Source: Rhizobium sp. FKL33
GTDB lineage: Bacteria; Pseudomonadota; Alphaproteobacteria; Rhizobiales; Rhizobiaceae
Length of the DNA: 64,000 bases
NCBI RefSeq assembly: GCF_005222915.1
Contig: NZ_STFX01000009.1
Span: 96,605-160,604 of the forward strand
Direction: 5' to 3'
The position numbers were made by a program, and so were the translations under genes. Below the pieces are notes generated by a model that ran no database searches, was not told the DNA's origin, and worked only from the letters and a program-made list of their open reading frames with translations. Shown here in pieces: positions 21,835 through 53,888 of this stretch; position 1 is the stretch's first letter, and every line of letters starts with the position of its first letter.

Positions 21835-23112
21835 GTGACCAAGATCATCAGCCTGGAGACGCTCGATCTCCGTTTCCCGACCTCCCAGAGCCTTGACGGT
21901 TCGGATGCGATGAATCCGGATCCGGATTATTCGGCCGCCTATGTCATTCTCGGCACGGATGAGAGCGGGCTGGAAGGTCACGGCCTTACCTTCACCATCG
22001 GCCGCGGCAATGATATCTGCTGCGCGGCGATCGAAGCCATGCGGCATCTGGTGGTCGGGCTCGATCTCGCCTGGATCAAGGAAAATCCCGGCCGCTTCTG
22101 GCGGCATGTGACGAGCGACAGCCAGCTGCGCTGGATCGGCCCGGACAAGGGCGCCATCCATCTCGCCACCGGCGCCGTTGTCAACGCCGTCTGGGATCTC
22201 ATGGCCAAGCAGGCCGGCAAGCCAGTCTGGCGGCTCGTGGCCGAGATGAGCCCGGAAGAAATCGTCGACATCGTCGATTTCCGCTACATGACCGACGCCA
22301 TCACCCGCGACGAGGCGCTCGCCATCCTGCGCAAGGCCGAGCCCGGCAAGGCCGAGCGCATCGCCCGGCTCGAAGCCAAGGGCTATCCTTGCTACACGAC
22401 CTCGGCCGGCTGGCTGGGCTATGACGACGACAAGCTGCGCCGCCTGTGCAAGGAAGCCATCGACGCCGGCTTCAACCATATCAAGATGAAAGTCGGCCGC
22501 GATCTCGAAGACGATATCCGCCGCCTGACCATTGCGCGCGAGGTGATCGGCCCCGACCGCTATCTGATGATCGACGCCAACCAGGTGTGGGAAGTCGACC
22601 AGGCGATCGATTGGGTGAAAAAGCTCGCTTTCACGAAACCCTTCTTCATTGAGGAGCCGACCAGCCCCGACGATGTGTTCGGCCACAAGAAGATCCGCGA
22701 AGCCATCGAACCGGTGAAGGTGGCGACCGGCGAAATGTGCCAGAACCGCATCATGTTCAAGCAGATGATCGCCAATGGCGCGATCGACATCGTCCAGATC
22801 GACGCCTGCCGCATGGGCGGCCTCAACGAAGTGCTCGGCGTCCTGCTGATGGCCGCCAAATTCGGCCTCCCCGTCTGGCCGCATGCCGGCGGCGTCGGCC
22901 TGTGCGAATATGTCCAGCATCTATCGATGATCGACTATGTCGCCGTGTCAGGCGAGATCGACGGCCGGGTGATCGAATTCGTCGACCATCTGCATGAGCA
23001 TTTTCTGGAGCCTTGCGTGATCGAGAACGCCGCTTACATGCCGCCGAAGGCTGCGGGGTTTTCGATTGAGATGAAAGCCGAGAGCCGGGACGAGTATCGG
23101 TTCAGGGGGTGA
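21835..23112 (+). CDS. L-fuconate dehydratase-like enolase-superfamily enzyme
   Basis: A 425-residue mandelate racemase/enolase-superfamily dehydratase. Residues around DFRYMTDAITRDEAL, YPCYTTSAGWLGYDDDKL, HIKMKVGRDLEDDI, LMIDANQVWEVDQA, EEPTSPDD, VATGEMCQNR and VWPHAGGVGLCEYVQH match L-fuconate dehydratase (FucD), with the KxK lysines, the three metal acids and the His-dependent general acid. FucD makes 2-keto-3-deoxy-L-fuconate from L-fuconate. The start is a GTG at 21835 behind AGAGGCATCC; no earlier start is possible without entering the repeat. A hairpin follows. With the lactonase, SDR and FAH genes it completes the pathway from lactone to pyruvate plus lactate. Confidence 0.9.
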   Translation: MTKIISLETLDLRFPTSQSLDGSDAMNPDPDYSAAYVILGTDESGLEGHGLTFTIGRGNDICCAAIEAMRHLVVGLDLAWIKENPGRFWRHVTSDSQLRWIGPDKGAIHLATGAVVNAVWDLMAKQAGKPVWRLVAEMSPEEIVDIVDFRYMTDAITRDEALAILRKAEPGKAERIARLEAKGYPCYTTSAGWLGYDDDKLRRLCKEAIDAGFNHIKMKVGRDLEDDIRRLTIAREVIGPDRYLMIDANQVWEVDQAIDWVKKLAFTKPFFIEEPTSPDDVFGHKKIREAIEPVKVATGEMCQNRIMFKQMIANGAIDIVQIDACRMGGLNEVLGVLLMAAKFGLPVWPHAGGVGLCEYVQHLSMIDYVAVSGEIDGRVIEFVDHLHEHFLEPCVIENAAYMPPKAAGFSIEMKAESRDEYRFRG

Positions 23113-23123
23113 ACTAAAACTTA

Positions 23124-23162
23124 GCGCCCCTCGCAAAGTAGGCTTATACTTGCGAGGGGCGT
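23124..23162 (+). terminator. hairpin terminator after the fuconate dehydratase gene
   Basis: A long stem GCGCCCCTCGCA with AAGTA paired to TACTTGCGAGGGGC (one bulged A), 12 nt after the stop. It marks the end of the catabolic cluster and the left edge of the AT-rich island. Confidence 0.7.
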
Positions 23163-23263
23163 TCGGCCTTTCGCTATAATGTCACATTGTGCTTATGTGA
23201 ATTATTTTTTTGCAGAAGTGTCGATTTTTTATTATTATGGCAATACTTCACAATAATAAGCTT

Positions 23264-23923
23264 TTACCCAATTTCCTCATCGCTATTTTCGTTTGCAAGC
23301 TGCTCGGATATGACATTTGGTATATGACTGCCGAGTGCGGCAATAAAGGCTATAGTTAACTCAGTGTCAGGCTTGTCTATCGGCCACAATCTTATCCCAG
23401 CTAAAGTAGGATTGACGTCCGCCTCATGAGCTATTTGGTTTCTACGTTTCCAAATGCTTTTTAGCTGACCCTTTATTGATTGTTCATCATTTTGTGTTGA
23501 ATTTTCAACGCCTTCATTTATTCTCTCAATTATTTTCTGCCAAGGCTTGTCGCAGTAGCAAGAGAGTAGCTCGGCAAGCTTTGCTGGATCAACAAATGCT
23601 TTGTATGAGTTGCTTTTACGGATATGCGCGGATGCAACGGCAATCCTTTCCTCTGCGTCAGCTATTGTCATAATTTCCATCGGCAAGCTGATATTTCTTG
23701 TTTTTATGCTGTTCTGGAATCTGTGTGTTGCTTCAATAAGCGCTACCTCATGGACAAAAAAGTCAAACGAGCTAACGGCTTGAAAATATGCAGATCTTAA
23801 GGCGTCATCGTTAGCAGGGTCGTCCCGTCTTAGTGCACATAGAGCATCATACAAATTGATCAGTTGTCTTGCTCGATCAATAGCATGGTCGAACGTTCTT
23901 ATTGCGTCACCGAACCTCTCCAT
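23264..23923 (-). CDS. HEPN-domain protein (RiboL-PSP type), candidate RNase toxin/defence effector
   Basis: The 219-residue protein is helical and carries the HEPN signature R161-N-Q-I-A-H166 (R-X4-H with Asn after Arg) in KRRNQIAHEADVN, within an arrangement like RiboL-PSP-HEPN proteins: an N-terminal helix pair with ALRRDDPANDDALRSAYFQAVSSFDFFVHEVAL and the RX4H helix near residue 160. Active HEPN proteins cut RNA using these residues. It starts one base after the stop of the ParA-like gene, so the two are co-translated. Codon choice and base composition are AT-rich compared with all neighbours, a sign of horizontal transfer. An RNase toxin whose activity is gated by the ATPase is the working idea. 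Confidence 0.72.
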   Translation of the reverse strand: MERFGDAIRTFDHAIDRARQLINLYDALCALRRDDPANDDALRSAYFQAVSSFDFFVHEVALIEATHRFQNSIKTRNISLPMEIMTIADAEERIAVASAHIRKSNSYKAFVDPAKLAELLSCYCDKPWQKIIERINEGVENSTQNDEQSIKGQLKSIWKRRNQIAHEADVNPTLAGIRLWPIDKPDTELTIAFIAALGSHIPNVISEQLANENSDEEIG

Positions 23924-23924
23924 T

Positions 23925-24989
23925 TTAGAATGCGTCCGTCATCTTAATGATTTTCTCGGCTCCTTGTTCGAAGCCCTTCCGAACATCTTCAATTTTTTGG
24001 GCGTATATATCAGCGACGGTACCGCGAAACTCTGTGTCGACATCTAAATCGAGCGCAAAAACTGGTTTAGCTAGTTCCTGCGCAGTCGCAATCAAACTAT
24101 CGAGCGTACTGATCTCCATGAGAAATCCTTCAGGGGGCGCTTTTGCATCTTCATAAATGTTGTCAGAAAGAAGCATATGAGCTCCTTTAAGTGCGGCCAT
24201 TAGATCATTCGCTTTCGTTTCTGCTAGCCTATCAAACCACTTTTGGAATGCTTTTGTTGGCTTGGCTTCCTCGTTGTTTCTCGATCTCTTTCGAAAGTTA
24301 TTGACAGAAGAACCTAAATACTTTGGTGTTACGTCGGGAAATGAGTAATCAGCGTCCTTGAGGATTGCGTTGCTAGCAGCTTTTCTTCCCCACTCTGCCC
24401 ATTTAGGAAGAGTTCGAGATAGCGAACGCAGTGCCATAGAGGAAAAGAGATCAGGCGCCATCGGAATAATGAAAGCATCGCTCGTCATAAAAAGGTTTTG
24501 ATTGATTGCTCCCAAGCTAGGGCTCATGTCGATGAGGGCGAGATCGATACTATATTTTTCTCCCGTTTTTGCGATGGCGTGATGAAGTGCACCTGGAATA
24601 TTCTGCAGCGCCGACAAGGTGTTGCTCAATTCGTGAGAAACTGCGAGTTGACTTTCGTATTCTGCTAGTCCGACGTGGCCTGGAAGAAGAAGTAAATCCT
24701 TTTGCAGCGGTGAAGTATACAGTTCAGTTGCCTCAATCATGTAAGGCCTAGATTCAAAGGCTGGTTTGATCGCATCGCGGATGTTTTTTGGCTTCTGCGG
24801 AGATTTGCTTTCGAAGGGATAATCTTCTGTATCCATATCGCCAAGAAAGGCGCCTGTAAGGTTGCATTGTGGGTCGCAGTCTACGATCATGGTCCGTTTA
24901 CCAAGTGTAGCAAGCATCCATCCTAGATGGAATGTTAATGTCGTTTTGGCTACGCCGCCCTTGTGATTAAAAATTGCAATTTGCTTCAT
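23925..24989 (-). CDS. ParA/Soj-type ATPase paired with a HEPN gene
   Basis: The start at 24989 (MKQIAIFNHKGGVAKTT) is chosen because AAGGG lies 7 nt upstream and this is where ParA-family proteins normally begin; it gives 354 residues. The deviant Walker A is KGGVAKTT (about K10-T17), DCDPQCNLTGAF is switch I, and ALIDMSPSLGAINQNLFMTSDAFIIPMAPD contains the Walker B region. The C-terminal 150 residues are longer than in plain ParA and include LLLSDNIYEDAKAPPEG, perhaps a partner-binding part. No parB or partition site is nearby, so plasmid partition is unlikely. It forms an operon with the HEPN gene, and an inverted repeat precedes it. Confidence 0.82.
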   Translation of the reverse strand: MKQIAIFNHKGGVAKTTLTFHLGWMLATLGKRTMIVDCDPQCNLTGAFLGDMDTEDYPFESKSPQKPKNIRDAIKPAFESRPYMIEATELYTSPLQKDLLLLPGHVGLAEYESQLAVSHELSNTLSALQNIPGALHHAIAKTGEKYSIDLALIDMSPSLGAINQNLFMTSDAFIIPMAPDLFSSMALRSLSRTLPKWAEWGRKAASNAILKDADYSFPDVTPKYLGSSVNNFRKRSRNNEEAKPTKAFQKWFDRLAETKANDLMAALKGAHMLLSDNIYEDAKAPPEGFLMEISTLDSLIATAQELAKPVFALDLDVDTEFRGTVADIYAQKIEDVRKGFEQGAEKIIKMTDAF

Positions 24990-25012
24990 CAATCGACCCT
25001 TCCGCATTTTTC

Positions 25013-25039
25013 TGTTCTGTAGTGATATATTTCAGAACA
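25013..25039 (-). promoter_or_regulatory. inverted repeat upstream of the ParA-HEPN operon
   Basis: TGTTCTG and CAGAACA form a perfect 7-bp inverted repeat with 13 AT-rich bases between. It lies 24-50 nt upstream of the ParA-like start codon and could overlap its promoter (TATATC between the arms). Likely an operator for autoregulation. Confidence 0.4.
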
Positions 25040-25227
25040 TGAAGACGTATCCATCTACATATACCTGCATTCTTTACGTTCAGTTATGCTGCGGCTATGC
25101 TTTTTCGCAGCACATAAACTTTTAGCATTTCATTCAAACAATTGATTCAACCATTCCCTCCACGCGATGGATCGCGCCTCCGTCCTCCCATAGCATCGGC
25201 CACATTCCCACTGCTCCGGACCCCGCC

Positions 25228-25860
25228 ATGCCCCTTCTCGACGCCGATCTCCTCCATCCCATCACGCTGCCCGACGGGACCGTCTATCGCGACACCGTGC
25301 ATCTGAAACAGGCGATCGACCATCCGCGCATCGAGGTCGGCGACTACAGCTATTTCACTCATTCGGGCCGCGTGGAGGAGACCGCGGGGATTCTGGCGCC
25401 GTATCTTGGTCCCGGCTGCCGGGAAAAACTGGTGATCGGCAAATTCGTGCAGATCGCCCGCGGCAGCTATTTCATCACCAGTTCCGCCAATCACCCGATG
25501 GCCGGGGTTACCGCCTATCCCTTCCGCATCTTCAAGCCGGAAACCTTTGGCTACAAGGATCTGCCGGTCAGGGATACGGTGGTCGGCCACGACGTTTGGA
25601 TCGGCCATGAGGCGGCGATCATGCCGGGGGTGCGGATCGGGCCGGGCGCCATCATCGCGGCCCGCGCCGTGGTGACGCGGCATGTCCCCGCCTATGCCGT
25701 CGTCGGCGGCAATCCGGCCGGGATCATCCGCATGCGCTATCCCGACGATGTGATCGCTGACCTCCTCGACCTCGCCTGGTGGGATTGGCCGATCGCCAAG
25801 ATCGAGGCCAATCTTCCGTATCTCGAAAGCGGGGATATCGAGGCGCTCAAGCGGGCGTGA
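25228..25860 (+). CDS. CatB/Vat-type hexapeptide acetyltransferase
   Basis: The 210-residue protein is a left-handed beta-helix acyltransferase of the xenobiotic acetyltransferase group: [45 protein letters not shown] with the catalytic histidine, [54 protein letters not shown]. Such enzymes use acetyl-CoA to acetylate antibiotics (chloramphenicol, streptogramins) or sugars. The ribosome site is weak. It stands alone between the AT-rich island and the glycerol locus and has ordinary GC-rich codon use. Substrate uncertain. Confidence 0.85.
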
Positions 25861-25909
25861 GGGGGGCACCGCGCTGGGTCCGCCGCGTGGCTTCTGTCGC
25901 CCGTCCAAT

Positions 25910-25936
25910 AAAAAAACCGGGGCGTTTCCGCCCCGG
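25910..25936 (-). terminator. terminator of the glp operon
   Basis: Perfect 8-bp stem CCGGGGCG / CGCCCCGG with a 4-nt loop; read on the minus strand it is followed by a run of seven T. It lies 26 nt beyond the glpV stop. Confidence 0.8.
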
Positions 25937-25962
25937 TCCGTGACGTCACAGCGTGGCGTCGA

Positions 25963-27684
25963 TTACTTCTGCCAGCTCTTCACCAGTTCGTCATAGTTGA
26001 CGGTGAGGGGCTTTTCCTTCTCGTTCTCGATCTTCAGCTGCGGAGCGAGATGGCCGTTCTTCACGGCGTCGGCGTTCCAGTAGGCGAGATCATGCTCTTC
26101 GGCGAGCTTCGGGCCGATGTCGCCCTGGACGCCTGCGCGTTCCAGACGGCTCAGCACCTTTTCCTGCTCGGCGCAGAGCGAGTCCATGGCTTCCTGGGCG
26201 GTCTTGGCGCCCGAAGAGGCGTCGCCGATCGCCTGCCACCACAGCTGGGCCAGCTTCGGATAGTCCGGAACGTTGGTGCCGGTCGGCGACCACTGCACGC
26301 GGGCCGGCGAGCGATAGAACTCAATCAGGCCGCCGAGCTTCGGCGCGCGGTCCGTGAAGCTCTTGTGCTGGATGGTCGATTCGCGGATCAGCGTCAGGCC
26401 GACATGGCTCTTCTTGACGTCCACGGTCTTGGAGGTGACGAACTGCGCATAGAGCCAGGCGGCCTTGGCGCGATCGTCAGGCGTGGACTTCAGCAGCGTC
26501 CAGGAACCCACGTCCTGATAGCCGAGCTTCATGCCGTCCTTCCAGTAGACGCCATGCGGCGACGGCGCGAAACGCCACTTCGGCGTGCCGTCGGCGTTGA
26601 CCACCGGCAGGCCGTCCTTGACCATGTCGGCGGTGAAGGCGGTGTACATGAACATCTGCTGGGCGATTTCGCCCTGGGCCGGCACCGGGCCGGATTCCGA
26701 GAAGGTCATGCCCTGAGCGGCGGCCGGCGCATAGGCCTTCAGCCAGTCGAGGTATTTCTGGATGGCGTAGACCGAAGCCGGGCCGTTGGTGTCGCCGCCG
26801 CGGGCGACGCAGGAGCCGACCGGCTGGGACTTTTCATTGACCTTGATGCCCCATTCGTCGACGGGCAGACCGTTCGGAAGGCCCTTGTCGCCATTGCCGG
26901 CCATCGACAGCCAGGCGTCGGTGAAGCGCCAGCCGAGCGAGGGGTCCTTCTTGCCGTAGTCCATGTGGCCATAGACCTTCTTGCCGTCGATTTCGCGACC
27001 GGTGAAGAATTCGGCGATGTCTTCGTAGGCAGACCAGTTGACCGGCACGCCGAGGTCGTAACCGTACTTGGCCTTGAAGTCGGCCTTGTTCTTCTCGTCG
27101 TTGAACCAGTCATAGCGGAACCAGTAGAGGTTCGCGAACTGCTGGTCGGGCAGCTGGTAGAGCTTGCCATCCGGGGCAGTGGTGAATTTCAGGCCGATGA
27201 AGTCGTTGAGGTCGAGACCGGGATTGGTCACGTCCTTGCCTTCGTTCGCCATCCAGTCGGTCAGCGAGCGAGCCTGCTTGTAGCGCCAATGGGTGCCGAT
27301 CAGGTCGGAGTCGTTGACATAGGCGTCATAGACGTTTTCGCCCGACTGCATCTGCGTCTGCAGCTTTTCGACGACGTCGCCTTCACCGATCAGGTCATGC
27401 GTGATCTTGATGCCGGTGATGGCGGTGAAGGCCGGAGCCAGCACCTTGGATTCATATTCATGCGTGGTGATGGTTTCGGAGACGACCTTGATCTCCATGC
27501 CGGCAAAGGGCTTGGCGGCGTCGACGAACCACTGCATTTCCTTTTCCTGGTCCGCGCGGGACAGGGTCGACAGATCGCCGACTTCCTTGTCCAGGAACTG
27601 CTTGGCTTCTTCCATGCCGGCAAAGGCCGTGCCGGCGAAAGCGAGCAGAATTGCCGCCGTCGATGTCAGTAGATGCTTTCGCAT
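25963..27684 (-). CDS. glpV: glycerol ABC transporter substrate-binding protein
   Basis: A 573-residue periplasmic solute-binding protein with signal peptide MRKHLLTSTAAILLAFAGTAFA. It is larger than usual CUT1 binding proteins, as are the GlpV proteins of rhizobial glycerol transporters, and shows DAYVNDSDLIGTHWRYKQ, PDQQFANLYWFRYDW, GWRFTDAWLSMAGNG and LTLIRESTIQHKSFTDRAP. It is the last gene of glpD-S-T-P-Q-U-V, the arrangement shown to be needed for glycerol use in Rhizobium leguminosarum. GGGAGGATCTT gives a strong ribosome site; a terminator follows. Confidence 0.88.
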   Translation of the reverse strand: MRKHLLTSTAAILLAFAGTAFAGMEEAKQFLDKEVGDLSTLSRADQEKEMQWFVDAAKPFAGMEIKVVSETITTHEYESKVLAPAFTAITGIKITHDLIGEGDVVEKLQTQMQSGENVYDAYVNDSDLIGTHWRYKQARSLTDWMANEGKDVTNPGLDLNDFIGLKFTTAPDGKLYQLPDQQFANLYWFRYDWFNDEKNKADFKAKYGYDLGVPVNWSAYEDIAEFFTGREIDGKKVYGHMDYGKKDPSLGWRFTDAWLSMAGNGDKGLPNGLPVDEWGIKVNEKSQPVGSCVARGGDTNGPASVYAIQKYLDWLKAYAPAAAQGMTFSESGPVPAQGEIAQQMFMYTAFTADMVKDGLPVVNADGTPKWRFAPSPHGVYWKDGMKLGYQDVGSWTLLKSTPDDRAKAAWLYAQFVTSKTVDVKKSHVGLTLIRESTIQHKSFTDRAPKLGGLIEFYRSPARVQWSPTGTNVPDYPKLAQLWWQAIGDASSGAKTAQEAMDSLCAEQEKVLSRLERAGVQGDIGPKLAEEHDLAYWNADAVKNGHLAPQLKIENEKEKPLTVNYDELVKSWQK

Positions 27685-51800: not shown

Positions 51801-51859
51801 ATGAGATCTAGCCGCGCGCTGATGCGCCCGCGCGTGGGAGCCGCGCGGCTAGATCTCAT
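51801..51859. repeat. perfect 18-bp inverted repeat with 23-nt spacer
   Basis: ATGAGATCTAGCCGCGCG (51801-51818) and its exact reverse complement (51842-51859) flank 23 GC-rich bases. It starts 9 nt after the terminator and ends 20 nt from the fliJ-like stop. No T tract follows, so it is not a standard terminator; it may be the end of a small mobile repeat or a protein binding site. Confidence 0.7.
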
Positions 51860-51879
51860 GTCGTCGGGCAGACGCCGCC

Positions 51880-52224
51880 TCAGGCGCGCATCTTCACGTC
51901 CCGTTCCTCGATGGCCGAAGCCTTATCGAATTCCGCCTGCAACTCTTCCACCTGGGCTTCCGCAGCATCCTGTTGAACCTTCAGTTCCTTGATGGAAACC
52001 TGAAGATTGTCGGCGCGCTGACGGGCGGCTTTGGCGAAAGTGGAATAGGCGAAGTGGTTGGGGTCCGTAATGCCGGACTTTTTTTCCTCGTAAACGATCT
52101 GGTTTTCCAGATCCTTGGCCATACGCTCAAATTCGGCCATCATCATCTGAAGCTGTTTCAGCTGCCGGCGTTTCTCCTTCAGCTGGAATTCCTTCAGACG
52201 CACTAGGCTCTCACGCGACTTCAT
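51880..52224 (-). CDS. fliJ: FliJ-like flagellar export coiled-coil protein
   Basis: A 114-residue, nearly fully helical, charged protein (MKSRESLVRLKEFQLKEKRRQLKQ, ADNLQVSIKELKVQQDAAEAQVEELQAEF). It fits FliJ, the stalk-like coiled coil that links the FliI ATPase and the export gate in flagellar type III secretion. In Rhizobiales a fliJ-like gene is commonly found next to ctrA. ATG 52224 with GGAG upstream is preferred to a TTG two codons earlier. It is divergent from ctrA and shares its CtrA-rich control region. Sequence alone gives moderate certainty. Confidence 0.7.
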   Translation of the reverse strand: MKSRESLVRLKEFQLKEKRRQLKQLQMMMAEFERMAKDLENQIVYEEKKSGITDPNHFAYSTFAKAARQRADNLQVSIKELKVQQDAAEAQVEELQAEFDKASAIEERDVKMRA

Positions 52225-52660
52225 ACGCAATACTCCATGGATAGCGAGACCCGCTTACAACAGGACTGCCCGCCGAAGGATTTTCATAATCCCTCGAAAA
52301 AAGTTCGCCGACGTTAATAAAAACATAACGGCGGTAACCTTTCGTTTACGTGCATCGTTAATGATAGCCATCATCATTTAAGGGTCGGTAAATGGCGAAG
52401 GCCAGAGATCGACGAAGTCCAAAGAATGAGTCTGCGGAGTCAGTTAGCCGGGGTTCCTCATCTTAAACGTTAAGATGGGTTCTCGGAATGTGTGATGAAA
52501 ATCAGGGGGCTACGAAAAATCTTTAACAAATACGATACACCTTGCCAGGATGAATCAGAATTTGTTAACCATTTGATGGCAGCCTCCAAATCAGGCAAAA
52601 GCTGGATCCTGGCCGGGTTAGGACGTTGCACCTTTCAAGGCGGCGGAAAAGGGGACGAAG
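52225..52660 (+). promoter_or_regulatory. ctrA/fliJ divergent control region with GANTC and CtrA-like sites
   Basis: This 436-nt gene-free region carries three GANTC sites: GAGTC at 52428-52432 and 52437-52441 and GAATC at 52552-52556. Two near-CtrA boxes are TTAA-N7-ATAA (52314-52328) and TTAA-N7-TAAA (52378-52392), each one base off, and TTAACCAT (52565-52572) is a half-site. In Caulobacter and Sinorhizobium, ctrA is controlled by methylation state of GANTC sites and by CtrA itself. A 62-codon open frame (52492-52680) overlaps the ctrA start but has no ribosome site. Confidence 0.55.
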
Positions 52661-53362
52661 ATGCGGGTTCTACTAATTGAAGACGACAGCGCGACAGCGC
52701 AGAGCATTGAGCTTATGCTCAAATCCGAAAGTTTTAACGTCTACACGACCGATTTGGGCGAGGAAGGCGTCGATCTGGGCAAGCTGTATGATTATGACAT
52801 CATCCTGCTCGACCTGAACCTGCCCGACATGTCCGGCTATGAAGTGCTTCGCACGCTGCGCCTGTCCAAGGTCAAGACCCCCATCCTGATCCTGTCGGGC
52901 ATGGCGGGGATCGAAGACAAGGTGCGCGGTCTCGGCTTCGGCGCCGACGACTACATGACCAAGCCGTTCCACAAGGACGAGCTGGTGGCGCGCATCCATG
53001 CGATCGTTCGCCGTTCGAAGGGCCATGCCCAGTCGGTCATCATCACCGGCGACCTGATCGTCAATCTCGACGCCAAGACGGTCGAAATCGGCGGCCAGCG
53101 CGTGCATCTGACCGGCAAGGAATATCAGATGCTGGAGCTGCTCTCGCTGCGCAAGGGCACCACGCTCACCAAGGAAATGTTCCTCAACCACCTCTATGGC
53201 GGTATGGACGAACCGGAACTGAAGATTATCGACGTCTTTATCTGCAAGCTGCGCAAGAAGCTCGCGGCAGCCGCAGGCGGCGCCAATTACATCGAAACGG
53301 TCTGGGGCCGCGGCTATGTGCTGCGCGAGCCCGACGGTTCGGAGTATATGGAAAGCGCCTGA
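52661..53362 (+). CDS. ctrA: cell-cycle master response regulator CtrA
   Basis: CtrA is an OmpR-type DNA-binding response regulator, essential in many Rhizobiales, that controls division, flagella, outer membrane and replication. The 233-residue protein has a receiver ([19 protein letters not shown], phosphorylated D51 in [15 protein letters not shown], the switch lysine in [10 protein letters not shown]) and a winged helix domain ([52 protein letters not shown], read across residues 148-200). It nearly equals CtrA of Caulobacter in key regions. Phosphorylation comes from CckA through ChpT, encoded at 54004; its inhibitor SciP is at 10795. A terminator follows. Confidence 0.98.
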
Positions 53363-53390
53363 TCCCTCTGCCTTGCCTTATTCCCGCAGA

Positions 53391-53420
53391 AACCCGTCTC
53401 GAATGTCGAGGCGGGTTTTT
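53391..53420 (+). terminator. intrinsic terminator of ctrA
   Basis: Twelve-base stem AACCCGTCTCGA / TCGAGGCGGGTT (one G-T pair) with a 3-nt loop and TTTTTT behind it. Confidence 0.8.
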
Positions 53421-53464
53421 TGCCGTTGTCAGACGCGCTGGAAGGGGAGGGTTCGTATGAACGC

Positions 53465-53492
53465 AAAACGCCCCGACTCGGTCGGGGCGTTT
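53465..53492 (-). terminator. terminator after the receiver-domain gene
   Basis: Perfect 11-bp stem AAACGCCCCGA / TCGGGGCGTTT with a 5-nt loop; on the minus strand it ends in TTTT, 21 nt past the stop. Confidence 0.7.
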
Positions 53493-53513
53493 GATAGGCT
53501 AAGACGTTAAAAG

Positions 53514-53888
53514 TCAGGCCACTGCTTCCATTGATGGGATGGCGGAGAATGCTGCGGCGAGCACCTTGCGATCGAAAGGTTTCAGCAGGAAATCGGAAGC
53601 GCCGGCGGTTTTGCCCGCCATCAGGCAGCGAAGATCCGCTTTCACCAGGCTGTAGAGAATGAGAGGGCGGCGACCGTCGCGCATGCTGCGGACGGCGCGG
53701 ATCAGGTCGAGCGCGCCCGTCATCGCCGAATCGACGATCAGGGCGTCCGGCATCTGCGCGTCGCTCCGCGCCAGCGCTTCGAGCGTCGTGGCGCATTGGC
53801 CGCAATCGTAACCCATTTGTCCCAGTATGTCGGCGGCGATTTTCCGCACCGCCTCGCTTTCATCAGCAATCAGAACACGCAACTTCAT
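53514..53888 (-). CDS. single-domain response regulator
   Basis: The start at 53888 (MKLRVLIADESEAVRKIAADIL) is the natural receiver N-terminus; 124 residues. It has the acidic pair DE near residue 9, the phospho-acceptor in ALIVDSAMTG and the lysine in FLLKPFDRKVLAAAF. No output domain exists, so it works by protein contact or as a phosphate sink. It lies downstream of chpT on the same strand (115 nt gap) and beside ctrA, so it could exchange phosphate with ChpT in the cell-cycle relay; CpdR is the known partner of that kind, but this sequence is not recognisably CpdR. Confidence 0.85.
   Translation of the reverse strand: MKLRVLIADESEAVRKIAADILGQMGYDCGQCATTLEALARSDAQMPDALIVDSAMTGALDLIRAVRSMRDGRRPLILYSLVKADLRCLMAGKTAGASDFLLKPFDRKVLAAAFSAIPSMEAVA

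Follow-up and report, generated by a model that had tools for sequence, protein, structure and literature searches.

A conserved, mobile ParA-HEPN gene pair in an AT-rich islet of Rhizobium sp. FKL33, probably a defence or toxin module

ParA ATPases are DNA-segregation motors. The locus described here lies in a 64,000-nucleotide stretch of the Rhizobium sp. FKL33 genome (the window; positions are counted from its first nucleotide) and raises the question of what such an ATPase does when the adjoining gene encodes a HEPN protein, a predicted RNase. We find that the pair is real, conserved and mobile, and comparison of sequences suggests a probable role as a defence or toxin module. The features of the locus are collected in Table 1.

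Table 1. Features of the ParA-HEPN locus, in window coordinates
Feature	Position	Strand	Remarks
Variable AT-rich segment	23113..25130	.	Genome G003 is homologous up to 23112 and again from 25131, with other cargo between
Perfect 12-bp inverted repeat	23125..23161	.	3' of the plus-strand gene ending at 23112
AT-rich 11-bp inverted repeat, 91%	23229..23259	.	Just beyond the HEPN stop
HEPN protein, 219 aa, predicted RNase effector	23264..23923	-	Pfam PF18735; R161-N-x3-H166
ParA-type ATPase, 354 aa	23925..24989	-	Pfam AAA_31, 8e-28; ParA/Soj fold; invariant motifs
7-bp inverted repeat TGTTCTG-13-CAGAACA	25013..25039	.	Upstream of ParA

The GC content of the pair is 0.443, compared with 0.620 in its flanks. 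All of the lowest-GC 1.7-kb stretches of the window fall in the islet, the next lowest elsewhere being 0.545; a preliminary description of this DNA had called it richer in A/T than all its neighbours. The region with the second lowest value (51850-53600) contains a response-regulator gene, which we take to be CtrA, and because it holds this gene it is probably ordinary. The same description had the pair flanked by a terminator and an inverted repeat. Two repeats are indeed present (23125-23161 and 23229-23259), but neither was among the sites returned by a terminator scan, which gave a chance-level result (3 sites, 2.7 expected), as did a promoter scan. The perfect repeat probably marks where the plus-strand gene before it ends. 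The repeat at 25013-25039 is a possible candidate operator; it was not seen upstream of any of the 12 relatives inspected, for which reason a conserved upstream operator was rejected and the repeat may be due to chance. An Rfam search of positions 22500-26000 gave no match.

Both open reading frames are intact and, as first described, are separated by one base (23924). That of ParA can be read from 25007 (23925-25007, 360 aa), and the start at 24989 (MKQIAIFN..., 354 aa), which is common to the relatives, is the more likely one. The deviant Walker A noted earlier is intact, as are the VDCDPQ and DMSPSLG motifs, and with the ParA fold it places the protein in the ParA/MinD group. Residues K10, G11, G12, V13, K15, T16 and T17 of the Walker A are invariant in 13 of 13 aligned ParA proteins, and so are R233, R235 and R237 in a basic stretch. 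The long C-terminal extension attributed to the ATPase was not borne out as a separate domain; it looks more like internal insertions in the ParA fold, which is what fold comparison suggests instead. No parB lies beside the pair, in agreement with the preliminary description, and none of the five ParB_N matches in the genome is on the contig that contains the window (C60). ParA as a partition gene was rejected on the lack of a ParB on the contig and on a score of 58.9 vs 348 with the RepA partition equivalog model.

The HEPN protein scores above the cut-off of Pfam PF18735, HEPN_RiboL-PSP (45.5 bits, cut-off 28.4; 1.1e-11), and below that of PF18737, MAE_28990/MAE_18760 (13.4, cut-off 26.8). 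It carries the R-x4-6-H motif of the HEPN RNase superfamily in the R-N-X3-H form originally noted, and R161, N162 and H166 are invariant in 13/13 aligned HEPN proteins. Among 33 diverse partners with a full HEPN, R161 and H166 were found in all 33 and N162 in 32, while R43, D54, H58, W128, D169 and P172 are also invariant. All 33 match PF18735 at E<=1, at least one of them (L003, 25.9) under the cut-off, and since ten also match PF18737 at E<=1 the two families may grade into each other. A Foldseek search with the HEPN model returned nothing at E<=0.001; after VIA re-ranking of the structure matches the model resembles HEPN toxins, and the likeness rests on this re-ranking together with the sequence. 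The solved HEPN toxins that it resembles are members of toxin-antitoxin pairs. In PADLOC no model clearly fits either window protein; the HEPN matches PD-T4-2_B weakly (E 0.021, 12.9 bits) over residues 133-168 only.

The preliminary description had staked its reading on the pair being conserved together elsewhere, and this was found. With one genome scanned per species, ParA relatives turned up at 12 loci, 11 of them full length and 72-78% identical; the twelfth (L013), a 48-residue N-terminal match at a locus without HEPN, was left out. Directly downstream of ParA in 11/11 of these full-length relatives is a HEPN gene whose product is 64-71% identical. Their hosts are Silicimonas, Mesorhizobium (2), Azospirillum, Sphingomonas (2), Methylobacterium, Roseomonas, Afipia and two MAGs assigned at family level. 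When the HEPN alignment was searched against 398 genomes of the phylum, five contained a match and ParA adjoins it in four, a count that includes the FKL33 genome itself and one (G587) that is probably of the same species as the Methylobacterium relative. The fifth genome (G663; L051, 1393-2656) has a PF18735 HEPN without ParA and an L-PSP/RidA gene about 175 bp downstream, an association that seems to be the source of the name of the Pfam family.

The spacing of the two genes ranged from -17 to +30 nt among 34 dereplicated pairs, from which one truncated protein (L056) was left out of the pair alignment, giving the 33 pairs used for residue counts. Across the diverse pairs ParA and HEPN distances are correlated at 0.93, a value inflated by related sequences and not reached in any of 5000 permutations. 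Both genes are under purifying selection in the seven pairs compared: pN/pS was 0.12-0.19 in ParA and 0.14-0.31 in HEPN, although six of these pairs have saturated synonymous sites. In the 11 relatives the pair has a GC content 0.02 to 0.28 below that of its flanks and, judged by eye, is usually a lone two-gene islet, most loci having no obvious defence neighbours. An integrase gene lies 3.3 kb upstream at L002, and a phage portal gene (L008), a recombinase (L003) and a DNA methylase (L010) are found near the pair at three other loci.

The gene on the left flank was searched in eight other genomes of the genus and was present in seven, three of which have other AT-rich cargo (GC 0.41-0.46) beside it. 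Genome G003 has a 301-aa DUF2971 gene (GC 0.46) between the homology breakpoints at 23112 and 25131, and its product matches PDC-S31 weakly in PADLOC (2.9e-5). Both flanking genes recur in G002, where a gene for a 687-aa AAA_15/OLD-TOPRIM protein (GC 0.41) lies between them; by PADLOC this protein resembles GajA, AriAB and Old. In G004 a 320-aa SLFN_AlbA_2 gene (GC 0.46) adjoins the left gene and the right flank is different; its product was unmatched in PADLOC at 0.001. No such cargo was seen adjoining the left gene in the other four (G001, G005, G006 and G007), nor was the right-hand acetyltransferase found there in the stretch examined. Across these seven genomes the site looks like a small hotspot of AT-rich conflict genes. 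Next to its DUF2971 cargo, G003 has two copies of the 5' portion of the acetyltransferase gene of the right flank (L189, 2026-2172 and 3082-3711), as if an insertion had left them.

The pair is present on phages, prophages, plasmids and chromosomes. Public phage records with the ParA are those of the filamentous phage Pf1, in which it is Orf317, annotated as a Soj-like regulatory protein, and of phage WX-TY; in both, the HEPN gene overlaps the end of the ParA gene. The Pf1 HEPN frame (175 aa; L052, 5034-5558; AY324828) is unannotated in the record. Both WX-TY genes are annotated as hypothetical, and the HEPN matches PF18735 at 6.8e-14. The term HEPN is absent from the available text of two Pf phage papers (PMC7549136 and PMC11341870). 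Many IMG/VR contigs carry the pair, counting the best 80 of 104 loci, and a plasmid collection searched with the HEPN at 1e-5 gave no match. On one viral contig (L091, 2187-6737) Ogr/Delta-type, DprA and HAD/phosphoribosyltransferase-like genes precede ParA-HEPN in a segment of GC 0.33-0.40 beside DNA of GC 0.62.

Both proteins have relatives with other partners. A PF18735 match at 1e-6 was found in 14 of 337 genomes of the class, and in nine of these a gene for GmrSD_N, a DUF262-type domain, precedes the HEPN; the FKL33 genome alone has ParA there, and four have neither. These nine neighbours suggest that the HEPN family occurs mostly with defence-like partners and that pairing with ParA is a side branch. 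Three of the nine GmrSD_N genes were tried in PADLOC, and all three gave NsnA as best match and PD-T4-2_A as second (E 1e-30 to 1e-37), while their HEPNs did not match PD-T4-2_B. Deletion of PD-T4-2 raised T4 plaquing, and the system protects its native strain from T4 (PMC9519451, available text).

For the ParA side a tree was built from 161 open reading frames of 270-460 aa (E<=1e-12), of which 120 remained once copies of 92% identity or more had been removed; the length limits left out, for example, L104, L040, L042 and L124. By neighbour, these 120 comprise 34 with HEPN, 16 with an AlbA_2-type gene upstream, four with SIR2, four with RelA/SpoT, two with an uncharacterised family, one cut by a contig end, and 59 without a recognised partner, the last including nine partition-type ParA proteins (the outgroup) and a few other ParAs. 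Pfam confirmed SIR2_2 in 4/4, RelA_SpoT in 4/4 and AlbA_2 in the one case tested (L041). In this quick maximum-likelihood tree, which has long branches and open forks where the effector types join, a single branch (SH-aLRT 96) sets off 38 sequences that include all the HEPN-linked ParAs. Of the four among these without a neighbour label, two (L060 and L094) have a full-length HEPN directly behind ParA by tblastn, bringing the total to 36 of 38. The SIR2-linked ParAs form one side of a branch (99), and the neighbour labels need 14 changes on the tree, compared with 54 in shuffles.

The ParAs that have an effector but fall outside the HEPN clade are distant relatives (E 1e-26 to 1e-45). Nearest to the HEPN side are 34 sequences without a recognised partner, mostly (pro)phage copies, among them the ParA of the P22-like phage SE1, which lies near the immunity region and is annotated as a ParA-like partition protein. 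Because about half of the relatives lack a recognised partner, ParA must also work without such effectors. The same-genus genome G002 has a ParA-SIR2 pair at another chromosomal site (L018), and on a Salmonella plasmid (L058, 3878-6937) genes for a DNA methyltransferase, ParA and SIR2 overlap end to start. Two ParAs near the HEPN-type ones (L104, 6023-6955; L105, 2078-2593) have another, related partner; the two partners are 22% identical over 127 residues, and that of L104 has an RNDAIH stretch and no Pfam match. No partner was recognised at L103. The partners at L045 and L070 have no Pfam match and share phrog_23933, the phrogs matched being of unknown function only.

We propose, at a probability of roughly 0.55, that the pair is a horizontally moving two-gene conflict module in which a HEPN RNase is restrained by ParA and released on invasion. 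The HEPN protein, to judge from its modelled fold and its motif, would be an RNase able to arrest or kill the cell. ParA, co-translated with it, would keep it inactive, most likely by direct contact dependent on the ATP state of ParA, and a phage or other invader that disturbs the cell would lead ParA to release or arm the HEPN, with abortive infection as the outcome. RNase activity, toxicity and phage protection are what we infer for the pair, as are the direction of control by ParA and the trigger. The sequences themselves show two conserved genes that look functional, are tightly coupled and inherited together, differ from the surrounding DNA in composition as foreign genes do, and occupy a variable site. 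Points against the proposal are the many ParA relatives, mostly from prophages, with no recognised partner, the scarcity of obvious defence genes around the close relatives, the distance of the ParAs with other effectors, and the PADLOC results for the window proteins and for the HEPNs beside GmrSD_N. The ATPase-gated defence module that had been called plausible is thus best retained as a defence or toxin module, because of the cargo at the site, the exchange of effectors, and the HEPN relatives beside known defence proteins.

The pair might instead be a plain toxin-antitoxin pair, in which ParA neutralises the HEPN toxin and the two genes stabilise themselves or their island by addiction, with no specific anti-phage role. 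The available text of PMC3710099 makes this same prediction for a ParA-HEPN dyad, and an occurrence on phages, prophages and plasmids as well as chromosomes is in keeping with it. We hold this to be possible, if rather doubtful, as the chromosomal copies are isolated two-gene islets and not pieces of a large element, and defence-like genes occupy the same site in related genomes. It is unlikely that ParA is an activator, ATP-bound on invader DNA and there recruiting or dimerising a HEPN that is inactive alone. The ParA fold is that of the DNA-binding Soj/ParA dimers, and the invariant basic stretch may serve in DNA binding; however, the solved HEPN toxins to which the model is similar come from toxin-antitoxin pairs.

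Segregation, with ParA partitioning DNA and the HEPN replacing ParB as an unusual adaptor, appears very improbable. It would suit the family of the ATPase, the copies on phages and plasmids and the annotation of the SE1 gene, but chromosomal islets need no partition, no ParB accompanies the pair, the RNase motif is invariant, and the score is far under the RepA partition model. Other ParA relatives, moreover, adjoin SIR2 and RelA/SpoT proteins.

The restrained-RNase reading can be extended, with some hesitation and at odds that we would place below even, to the ParA lineage as a whole. The ParA would then be one branch of an undescribed modular family with poisons exchangeable by clade (HEPN RNase, SIR2 NADase-like, RelA/SpoT-like nucleotide synthetase, AlbA_2 and unknown proteins), carried also on filamentous phages such as Pf1, and would serve as the sensor of invaders, or the gate, common to ATPase-gated immune modules of a new class. 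Control of poisons by a ParA lineage would add a new role to those of the family, and would suggest that dynamic ATP switches of the ParA type can sense infection. The pair also points to a candidate function for those accessory genes in Pf1-type phages now annotated as regulatory or hypothetical.

Several known systems come close to the pair. ParABS and RepABC have a ParA-type ATPase of the same fold and motifs; unlike them, the present pair has no ParB, low equivalog scores and a HEPN partner. In HEPN-MNT (HepT/MntA, type VII toxin-antitoxin) the partner is an MNT nucleotidyltransferase and not, as here, an AAA_31 ParA ATPase. DUF262/GmrSD and HEPN pairs such as PD-T4-2 have a HEPN as the second gene, of PF18735 in the 9/14 genomes above, whereas the first gene here is ParA. 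Tha, an anti-phage HEPN RNase of a S. aureus prophage (301 aa), has the R-x4-H motif and is likewise prophage-borne; it differs in being a single protein with its own inhibitor and without an ATPase partner, the term ATPase being absent from the available text (PMC11087260). A search of mostly open-access journal literature found no experimental study of a ParA-HEPN pair. The preliminary description knew of no named system of this two-gene form, which stands in part: Anantharaman et al. 2013 (PMC3710099) described a ParA/Soj-HEPN dyad and predicted that it is probably a toxin-antitoxin pair in which the ATPase acts as antitoxin, but with a HEPN of another family. As far as the available text of that paper goes, the dyad's HEPN is placed in MAE_18760, and Ribo L-PSP-HEPN is listed as 'operon with ParB'. 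Common to both is a ParA-type ATPase gene adjacent to a HEPN gene with the catalytic motif; the HEPN here is assigned by Pfam to PF18735 and not to MAE_18760. The pair is small, conserved and readily cloned, so that what was predicted in 2013, HEPN toxins under the control of an ATPase, is directly testable with it. By its family assignments, the Rhizobium pair is a variant, with a PF18735 HEPN, of the kind of ParA-HEPN dyad predicted there.
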